Shown here: positions 16,273-24,497 of the stretch, in pieces
Layout: every line of letters begins with the position of its first letter
Position numbering within the stretch: position 1 is the stretch's first letter
Translations under genes and position numbers: made by a program
Assembly (NCBI GenBank): GCA_937858155.1
Contig: CALLYM010000219.1
Span: 1-50,581, forward strand
Length of the DNA: 50,581 bases
Source: an uncultured Phycisphaerales bacterium
Lineage (GTDB): Bacteria > Planctomycetota > Phycisphaerae > Phycisphaerales > UBA1924
Reading direction: 5' to 3'
Notes under the pieces: generated by a model
The model's input: only the letters and a program-made list of their open reading frames with translations
What the model was told of the DNA's origin: nothing
Database searches by the model: none

Positions 16273-17334
16273 TCAGCGCATCGACGAACCACACGCTTGT
16301 GCGATAGCCTCCACCGCGCGCGTGACACCGGCGAGGTTGACGTCCAGGTGCGTCACCGCCCGGACTTTCCTCGGGCCGGTGGGGAGCATGAGCACGCCCA
16401 GCGATTGAATGCGGGCGCACAACGTTGGAGCGTCAAAGGGCACAGCGCTCCCCAGGTCAAAGAGCACGATGTTCGATTCGACCCCGAACGGGCCGTGGCA
16501 TGCGTCGAGCGTGATGCCCTTCACCTTGACGACCCCTTCGGCGAACGCACGGGCGTTCGCATGGTCGTCCGAGAGGCGGGCGATGTGGTGGTCTAAGGCG
16601 TGCGACGCCGCGGCGGCGAGCAGCCCGCTCTGGCGCATGCCCCCGCCGAGCATCTTCCGTATGCGCCGAACCTTCGCGACCAGATCGTTCGTTCCCGCCA
16701 CAGCGCTGCCCACGGGGGCCCCGAGACCCTTGCTGAAACAGCACGACACGCTGTCAAAGTACCGCGCGTAGTCTCGGGCGGTGACGCCCCCCGCAACGCA
16801 CGCGTTCCACAAGCGCGCGCCATCCATGTGTGTCCGCATGGAGTGCTGCCGGGCCGCGCCGGTGACAGCCTCGATGTCCTCCAACGCCCACACCGCACCG
16901 CCGCCCCTGTTGTGGGTGTTCTCGACGACCAGCAGTCTCGAGCGTGGGAAGTGGACATTGTCGGCACGGACGGCGGACACCACGTCCGCTTTGGAGAACT
17001 GCCCGCGCGGGCCCCGAAGCCCCCTCACCATGCACCCACTGATGGCGGCGGGGCCGCCCCCTTCGTACAGGATGATGTGGCTGTCTTCGTGGGCGATGAC
17101 CTCGTCACCCGGCTCGGTGTGGGCGCGGATGGCGCATTGATTTCCCATCGTGCCGCTGGGAACAAAGCACGCGGCCTCCTTGCCAAGGAGCGCCGCGACC
17201 TTGTGCTCAAGGGCCGCGACGCTTGGGTCGTCGCCGAGCACATCGTCGCCGATCGGCGCTCGGGCCATGACGTCCCACATGGCTGGGGTGGGCCGCGTGA
17301 CAGTGTCGCTGCGGAGATCGACGGGGACTTTCAT
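16273..17334 (-). CDS. ltaE: Low-specificity L-threonine aldolase
   Basis: A PLP enzyme of fold type I that cleaves L-threonine or allo-threonine to glycine and acetaldehyde. The 353 residues show 'DLRSDTVTRPTPAMW' at the N-terminus, 'PSGTMGNQCA', 'ENTHNRGGGAVW', 'HMDGARLWNA' and the PLP lysine in 'CFSKGLGAPVGS'. TACCCT ends 5 nt before the ATG. It is divergent from hsp20 and 3 bp from the lipoprotein stop. Confidence 0.95.
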   Translation of the reverse strand: MKVPVDLRSDTVTRPTPAMWDVMARAPIGDDVLGDDPSVAALEHKVAALLGKEAACFVPSGTMGNQCAIRAHTEPGDEVIAHEDSHIILYEGGGPAAISGCMVRGLRGPRGQFSKADVVSAVRADNVHFPRSRLLVVENTHNRGGGAVWALEDIEAVTGAARQHSMRTHMDGARLWNACVAGGVTARDYARYFDSVSCCFSKGLGAPVGSAVAGTNDLVAKVRRIRKMLGGGMRQSGLLAAAASHALDHHIARLSDDHANARAFAEGVVKVKGITLDACHGPFGVESNIVLFDLGSAVPFDAPTLCARIQSLGVLMLPTGPRKVRAVTHLDVNLAGVTRAVEAIAQACGSSMR

Positions 17335-17339
17335 GATAA

Positions 17340-17345
17340 AGGGTA
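17340..17345 (-). promoter_or_regulatory. -10-like hexamer before ltaE
   Basis: TACCCT on the minus strand, 5-nt spacer (TTATC) to the ltaE ATG; no Shine-Dalgarno sequence. Confidence 0.55.
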
Positions 17346-17387
17346 TTCATGGGGGCAACTTCCGTGCCTGCCACTGCTGCAGGGGGC

Positions 17388-17400
17388 TGCCACACTGGCA
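17388..17400 (+). promoter_or_regulatory. Palindrome upstream of the sigma54-type promoter
   Basis: TGCC-ACACT-GGCA, centred about 108 bp before the expected hsp20 transcription start. The distance fits a binding site for a sigma54 activator (enhancer-binding protein); inference from position and symmetry only. Confidence 0.4.
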
Positions 17401-17475
17401 CCACCGCGCGCTCATCGGCGTACAAACGCGCTGCGAACACGTCCGCCTACGCGGGCATCGGCCACGGGGCGCGAT

Positions 17476-17491
17476 TGGCACACTCCTTGCA
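17476..17491 (+). promoter_or_regulatory. Sigma54-type promoter of hsp20
   Basis: TGGCAC-N5-TTGCA: the -24 GG (17477-17478) and -12 GC (17489-17490) have the required 10-bp spacing and both half-sites match the RpoN consensus. The expected start is near 17502, giving a leader of about 68 nt. Confidence 0.75.
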
Positions 17492-17569
17492 ATTCACTGG
17501 ACTGAGCGTACTGCAGCACCAGATGAAGCAGTCCGGTGTTGCGAGTACGCAAGGAGAAAGGAACACGCC

Positions 17570-18001
17570 ATGACACTCAACCTTGTTCACCGGAGCCGCG
17601 GCACCCCTTCGTACCCGAGCCTTCTCGAGGAATTCCTGAGCGAGCCCTTCCTGATGGTCGCACCGATGACTCAGCAGGCGCAGTCGCTCGCTGTCGACGT
17701 TTCTGAGGCCGAAAGCGATGTGGTTGTGCGCGCGAGCGTTCCGGGCTTCCGAAAGGATCAGATAGCCATCGAGGTGCACGATGATGTGCTCACGATCCGC
17801 GCGGAAAAGTCCGAGGAGGTGGAGGAAAAGAACGAGCGGTACACGCGGCGCGAGAGGCGTGCCGGCAGCTTTGCGCGGTCCCTCGCGCTCCCCGCGCCCG
17901 TGGCCACGGAAAAGGCCCAGGCAGAGCTCAAGGACGGTGTGCTGACGCTGACGATTCCAAAGAATCAGAAGGCCCAGCCGCGGAAGATCAGCATCAACTG
18001 A
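17570..18001 (+). CDS. Small heat-shock protein (Hsp20/alpha-crystallin)
   Basis: An ATP-independent holdase of 143 residues. The alpha-crystallin domain covers about residues 40-132 ('VDVSEAESDVVVRASVPGF', 'DDVLTIRAEKSEE', 'RRAGSFARSLALP', 'LKDGVLTLTIPK'), with a short N-terminal arm and a C-terminal tail ending 'PRKISIN' (I-x-I motif for oligomer contacts). ATG 17570 has AGGAG 13 nt and AAAGGA 7 nt upstream. Transcription appears to start from a sigma54-type promoter; no CIRCE element is seen. A strong hairpin follows at 18029-18057. Confidence 0.94.
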   Translation: MTLNLVHRSRGTPSYPSLLEEFLSEPFLMVAPMTQQAQSLAVDVSEAESDVVVRASVPGFRKDQIAIEVHDDVLTIRAEKSEEVEEKNERYTRRERRAGSFARSLALPAPVATEKAQAELKDGVLTLTIPKNQKAQPRKISIN

Positions 18002-23639: not shown

Positions 23640-24497
23640 TTACCGGCCCGTTGCTCCGTGCAGTTCGCGGCGGAGCGCCCGCGCTGCCTCCTCCACCCCT
23701 GCGATCCATGAACCGCCCGCCGCGGGGGCATAAATCACGCTGCGCGACGCCGTGACGAGCACGCCCGCACCGTCGCGTCCGTTGCGGACCATCGCGCGGA
23801 TGTCGTCCACCGTACCCCCCTGAGACCCGTAGCCTGGGATCAGAAAGTACGAATCAGGCATCCGTGCCCGTAATGCCAGGGCATCTGCTGCCTTGGTGGC
23901 ACCGACGACCGCCCCGACGGAGGAAAGTTCGCCACCGTGCTTCGCCAGATCATCCTTGGCCAGGAGGGAGACCATGTCCGCCATCGATTCCGCCACTGTT
24001 CTTCCATCCACGAGGCGTTGGCTCTGAACGACATCGCTATCGGGATTACTGGTGCGCACCAGGATAAATACCCCCAGGCCCGCGTCCAAGAAGGGCTTGA
24101 TAGTGCTGGGGCCCATGTAGCCGGAAAGCGTGACAGCGTGAGCGCCGGTCCGGCGTGCCGCCTCGGCATAGTGACCCGCTGTCAGGCCGATATCGCCCCG
24201 CTTGACATCCAGCACCACCACCAGCCCTGCGCGGACCGCTTCCGCGATGCACTCCTCAAGGAGGAGTACCCCGCGCCCGCCGTACCGCTCGAAGCAAGCG
24301 GATTGAAACTTCACCGCGGCCGCATGCCCGTGCACCGCGCGTATGACCCCATGGCAGAACTCAGAGATGGCGGCCAGAGCCTCGTGGTGTCGTGCTCGGA
24401 CTTCCGCGGGCAGCTGATCATGCACAGGATCAAGCCCAACGCACGCGAAGGAGCCGGTCTCGGCGATGCGCCGGGAAAGCACGTCGGAAAACGCCAT
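23640..24497 (-). CDS. pyrF: Orotidine 5'-phosphate decarboxylase
   Basis: It decarboxylates OMP to UMP, the last step of de novo pyrimidine synthesis. The 285 residues match the longer type 2 family: 'CVGLDPVHDQLP', 'AAVKFQSACFERYG', catalytic 'DVKRGDIG', 'VTLSGYMG', 'FILVRTSNPDS', 'GAVVGAT' and 'IPGYGSQGG'. ATG 24497 is chosen by homology; TACGCT ends 3 nt upstream. It diverges from ribH across 116 bp. Confidence 0.95.
   Translation of the reverse strand: MAFSDVLSRRIAETGSFACVGLDPVHDQLPAEVRARHHEALAAISEFCHGVIRAVHGHAAAVKFQSACFERYGGRGVLLLEECIAEAVRAGLVVVLDVKRGDIGLTAGHYAEAARRTGAHAVTLSGYMGPSTIKPFLDAGLGVFILVRTSNPDSDVVQSQRLVDGRTVAESMADMVSLLAKDDLAKHGGELSSVGAVVGATKAADALALRARMPDSYFLIPGYGSQGGTVDDIRAMVRNGRDGAGVLVTASRSVIYAPAAGGSWIAGVEEAARALRRELHGATGR

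Follow-up and report, generated by a model that had tools for sequence, protein, structure and literature searches.

A sigma54-type promoter and an upstream palindrome before a small heat-shock gene of a Phycisphaerales bacterium, and their recurrence before other chaperone genes

The bacterial heat-shock response is generally attributed to alternative sigma70-type factors or to repressors. One of the closest known cases to the locus described here is E. coli ibpB, whose sigma54-dependent promoter likewise serves a small heat-shock gene (PMC4316790, naming Kuczynska-Wisnik et al. 2001; PMC4370416); there, the sigma54 promoter is an extra one within a sigma32-controlled operon. On a wider scale, a study of 2025 found predicted sigma54 promoters to be enriched for the GroEL, GroES, IbpA, GrpE, DnaJ and DnaK groups in Planctomycetota and Bacteroidota, mainly in Planctomycetia and less in Phycisphaerae (PMC12316311). 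It gives promoter statistics at the COG level; its main text mentions neither a palindrome nor an upstream activating sequence, and no activator was seen to be assigned to the chaperone promoters. In Rhodopirellula baltica, a heat-shock array of 2009 recorded the induction of ClpB, GroEL, DnaJ, GrpE, Hsp20, DnaK and ClpP, with rpoH, rpoE and rpoN unchanged, and the authors suggested a significantly different response cascade; the same paper refers, in addition, to a sigma54 promoter proposed for a thioredoxin (PMC2754498).

The DNA analysed, called here the window, is a stretch of 50,581 nucleotides from an uncultured Phycisphaerales bacterium, whose genome assembly is fragmented (3.8 Mb, 296 contigs, 83% complete). 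The region of hsp20 contains the following features:

17388 to 17400, + strand: putative activator-site palindrome TGCC-ACACT-GGCA (CTGCCACACTGGCAC including flanks), centre at 17394, about -108
17476 to 17491, + strand: sigma54 promoter core TGGCAC-ACTCC-TTGCA (TGGCACACTCCTTGCA), with the -24 GG at 17477-17478 and the -12 GC at 17489-17490
17502, + strand: expected transcription start, inferred from the sigma54 promoter geometry, about 12 bp past the -12 GC; there are no mapping data
17506 to 17550, + strand: stable leader hairpin GCGTACT-GCAGCACC / GGTGTTGC-G-AGTACGC, a predicted fold
17551 to 17564, + strand: AAGGAGAAAGGAAC, ribosome-binding region rich in purines, which the predicted fold leaves largely unpaired
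17570 to 18001, + strand: hsp20, small heat-shock protein of 143 aa plus stop (PF00011 HSP20, E 3.2e-23)

A preliminary description of this DNA had read three things before hsp20, and all were seen again: the core TGGCAC-N5-TTGCA, in which the spacing from the -24 GG to the -12 GC is exactly 10 bp, the palindrome TGCC-ACACT-GGCA, centred about 108 bp upstream of the start expected at about 17502, and a leader of 68 nt from that start to the ATG at 17570. Moreover, TTGGCACACTCCTTGCAA at 17475-17492 is an exact match to the sigma54 consensus YTGGCAC-N5-TTGCW. A terminator scan near hsp20 gave nothing, and a search of named genomes with the Hsp20 protein returned two distant relatives only. An ECF factor encoded in the window scored far below the cut-off of a Rhodopirellula/Verrucomicrobium sigma-factor model.

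Hsp20 relatives are present in 43 of 61 genomes. The upstream regions of the 30 best hsp20 loci were compared, a sigma54-type site being counted at a score of at least 17. Such a site was observed on the sense strand in 15 of the 30 loci (1 antisense, 0 reversed, 0.2 in shuffles), and the palindrome TGYC-N5-GRCA in 19 of them (1 reversed, 0.4 in shuffles). When only the hsp20 of the window and its ten closest orthologues are considered, the sigma54 site is present in 11 out of 11 and the palindrome lies 42-96 bp further upstream in 9 of these 11. Distant Hsp20 paralogues of some families in the order have neither element.

Taken singly, neither the sigma54 site nor the palindrome is above chance. 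The window contains 3 palindromes of this class, with 2.0 expected, and, if one mismatch is allowed, 4 sigma54 cores, with 5.0 expected, of which only the one before hsp20 is exact; genome-wide, TGGCACN5TTGCW occurs 7 times and the reversed pattern 3. Instead, the excess is in the pair and in the conservation of the pair: 4 of the 14 exact TGGCACN5TTGC sites of the genome have TGCC-N5-GGCA upstream, where 0.03 would be expected, and three of these four stand before hsp20 (gap 75), dnaK (gap 92) and groEL (gap 93). The preliminary description had proposed searching the genome for the palindrome near other RpoN-type promoters; this search found it before dnaK, groEL and a nucleotidyltransferase with a SMODS domain (CBASS-like). 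The last of these follows the fourth paired site (L160, G000:C63:5759-5773, - strand); this pairing may be due to chance, or it could connect the chaperone regulon with a gene of defence type.

Of 400 genomes searched in the order, 99 contain the composite pattern of palindrome and sigma54 site (about 110 matches, the reversed pattern giving 6); across the phylum, it occurs in 63 of 392 genomes (about 75 matches, the reversed pattern giving 11). The strict composite is limited to about a quarter of the genomes of the order. In the retrieved DNA, 111 of 131 composite sites precede chaperone-class genes (representatives were checked with Pfam), namely those of DnaK (51), Hsp20 (36), GroEL (12), Clp ATPases (8), GroES (2), DnaJ (1) and ClpP (1), and a thioredoxin is among the non-chaperone genes. 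The 131 sites include repeat loci, the distinct chaperone-class sites being 106; owing to common descent among related sites and proteins, the counts are not independent. Also outside the chaperone set, in one relative the composite stands upstream of an AAA ATPase-like ORF (L116, G022:C1:120046-120146, + strand).

In the composite sites, the positions not fixed by the search pattern are occupied as in known sigma54 promoters: a pyrimidine precedes TGG in 88% of cases, CAC is followed by G in 64%, and TTGC is completed by its C in 90%. The palindrome consensus of the 106 distinct chaperone-class sites extends to CTGCCA-N3-TGGCAG, and a palindrome of this class precedes hsp20, dnaK and groEL of the source genome. 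The gaps between palindrome and promoter peak at 51-53, 61-63 and 71-73 bp, with a helical phasing R of 0.44-0.47, and the peaks are common to the DnaK and Hsp20 sets. The nominal p-value of this phasing is too small, since the sites are related by descent; on the other hand, peaks at the spacing of DNA turns fit an activator bound on one face of the DNA, and that the gaps recur from one gene family to another is difficult to account for if they have no function.

The genome encodes rpoN (G000:C235; PF04552, E 9.7e-59), with a match also to the N-terminal AID. The absence of this gene, which according to the preliminary description would have refuted the sigma54 reading, is therefore excluded. 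Six proteins with a strong PF00158 sigma54-activation domain were found in the genome and none of them is inside the window, from which an enhancer-binding protein had already been reported missing; the one required is likely encoded on another contig. The candidate is the following:

G000:C77:22874-23851, - strand: REC-AAA-Fis protein, candidate activator, locus L006/L171 (PF00158 and PF02954 HTH_8)

Its sequence contains GAYTGA, a GAFTGA-like loop, and a Fis-type HTH was matched. Of 14 small genomes that have the element, 11 encode exactly one strong activator-domain protein, and this lone protein is a REC-AAA-Fis protein whose C-terminal end is LLGIGERTLYRKLKEYGL or nearly so. Over the AAA and Fis domains L006/L171 is 53-58% identical to the small-genome activators, the other complete activators in the source genome reaching 36-47%. 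The search with the candidate gave one strong match each in 60 of 61 genomes. The 43 complete proteins compared share the recognition helix GIGERTLYRKL without a single difference and, with a truncated member, make up one clade; the phosphorylation residues of REC are kept in the 42 relatives compared. In the source genome, REC begins at profile position 17, near the contig end, and lacks the N-terminal acidic pair; at L171 (G000:C77, about 23851-24448, - strand) it is of a different, N-terminally incomplete type with respect to its own genus, and it may be diverged, swapped or misassembled.

We consider it highly probable that hsp20 is driven by sigma54 together with an enhancer-binding protein and belongs to a general chaperone (heat-shock) regulon, with L006/L171 as the likeliest activator. 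The sigma54 RNA polymerase would transcribe the gene from the site at 17476-17491, and the enhancer-binding protein would bind the palindrome at 17388-17400 and loop back to the polymerase, thus switching transcription on. That this protein is the REC-AAA-Fis protein L006/L171 is most likely, a choice resting on co-occurrence only, with no binding data. Phosphorylation of the REC domain is inferred as the possible trigger, and heat or misfolded protein would, by a similar inference, induce the regulon. The occurrence of the same palindrome and promoter before dnaK and groEL here, and before the DnaK, Hsp20, GroEL, ClpB/ClpC and further chaperone genes of relatives, would make hsp20 one member of this regulon. 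The preliminary description had suggested sigma54-type control of hsp20 alone; the presence of rpoN and the retention of both elements across related genera support it, RpoN dependence being still an inference without experimental data, and the single-gene picture widens to dnaK, groEL and the chaperone genes of many relatives.

It remains possible, even if we regard it as unlikely, that the sigma54 promoter is real but the palindrome is bound by some other protein, such as a repressor, a bending protein or a different enhancer-binding protein, so that the activator named here would be wrong; five further strong activator-domain proteins in the source genome, and the lack of palindrome-binding data, leave room for this. 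By contrast, most small genomes that carry the composite encode a single strong activator-domain protein, which always belongs to the L006/L171 clade, its invariant recognition helix pairs with a strongly conserved palindrome, and the helical phasing of the palindrome to the promoter fits an activator.

The activator that we prefer, L006/L171, shares with NtrC-type enhancer-binding proteins the AAA+ domain with a GAFTGA-like loop, the Fis-type HTH and, although atypical and N-terminally incomplete in the source genome, the REC domain; the proposed system, like theirs, places its dyad site 50-100 bp ahead of the promoter and favours one face of the helix. Unlike in NtrC-type systems, the targets are general chaperones, and in many relatives the activator gene comes after ruvC, no histidine kinase gene having been seen next to it. 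The targets dnaK, groEL, groES, hsp20 and clp are those of the HrcA/CIRCE and sigma32 regulons, from which the present one would differ in that control is by activation through sigma54. HrcA was observed in none of 61 genomes, control genomes being positive, and no RpoH exceeded the TIGR02392 cut-off in the same number of genomes, in which only weaker sigma70-family matches were obtained; a non-canonical factor cannot be excluded. No CIRCE element was found in the window within 3 mismatches. Differently from E. coli ibpB, sigma54 appears here to serve the main chaperone set, with canonical RpoH and HrcA not found.

With less confidence than for hsp20 itself, we think it fairly probable that in the whole order, and possibly in much of the phylum, sigma32 and HrcA have been replaced by one dedicated sigma54 activator, a heat-shock master regulator acting via CTGCCA-N3-TGGCAG. 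A sigma54 activator switched by modification, and not by its amount, would fit the unchanged rpoH, rpoE and rpoN of the Rhodopirellula array (PMC2754498). A heat-shock regulon that requires an ATP-driven sigma54 activator would represent a third type of control, one that is tightly shut off when inactive and receives its signal via the receiver domain, and the naming of both activator and site makes the regulon directly testable. What was already known is the sigma54-chaperone enrichment, predicted in 2025; in the literature searched we found neither the palindrome nor a role of the present activator in chaperone control described, and the work of Studholme and Dixon 2004 on Pirellula activators may overlap.

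A different explanation places the heat control of hsp20 after transcription, with the leader hairpin at 17506-17550 as an RNA thermometer or mRNA stabiliser. The hairpin, on which the preliminary description is silent, is a strong one, directly before the ribosome-binding region: the leader at 17502-17590 has a predicted fold of -32.7 kcal/mol (z -3.75), and its main stem counts 15 pairs with one bulge. A thermometer of the ROSE or fourU type was rejected, as the ribosome-binding region lies mostly outside the stem and unpaired, which is not what a classical thermometer has, and no Rfam match, thermometer families included, was obtained near the leader. A conserved feature was likewise ruled out, no comparable fold being present in about 20 other hsp20 leaders. 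We therefore judge post-transcriptional control to be improbable; the hairpin may be incidental, or it could supplement, and not replace, control by sigma54.

That a sigma54-like string and a short palindrome stand before hsp20 by accident and without function, the gene being driven by a sigma70-family promoter, is hardly credible: neither element, taken alone, exceeds chance in the window, and sigma70-family factors of RpoH-like size do exist below the cut-off, but both elements are kept before hsp20, dnaK, groEL and clp genes across genera, and no sigma70-like promoter was found in 17300-17620.

Further sigma54-type sites were observed in the genome. Close to hsp20, the one-mismatch site AGGCACGGAAGTTGC (17355-17369, - strand) faces the divergent aldolase gene (16273-17334, - strand), with the palindrome just upstream; taken alone, this site is at chance level. 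A site without palindrome lies about 160 bp upstream of rpoN (L167, G000:C235:1570-1584, + strand), and autoregulation is possible. Finally, a site before a glutamate dehydrogenase-like gene (L166, G000:C232:10551-10565, - strand), also without palindrome, fits a separate, nitrogen-related use of sigma54.
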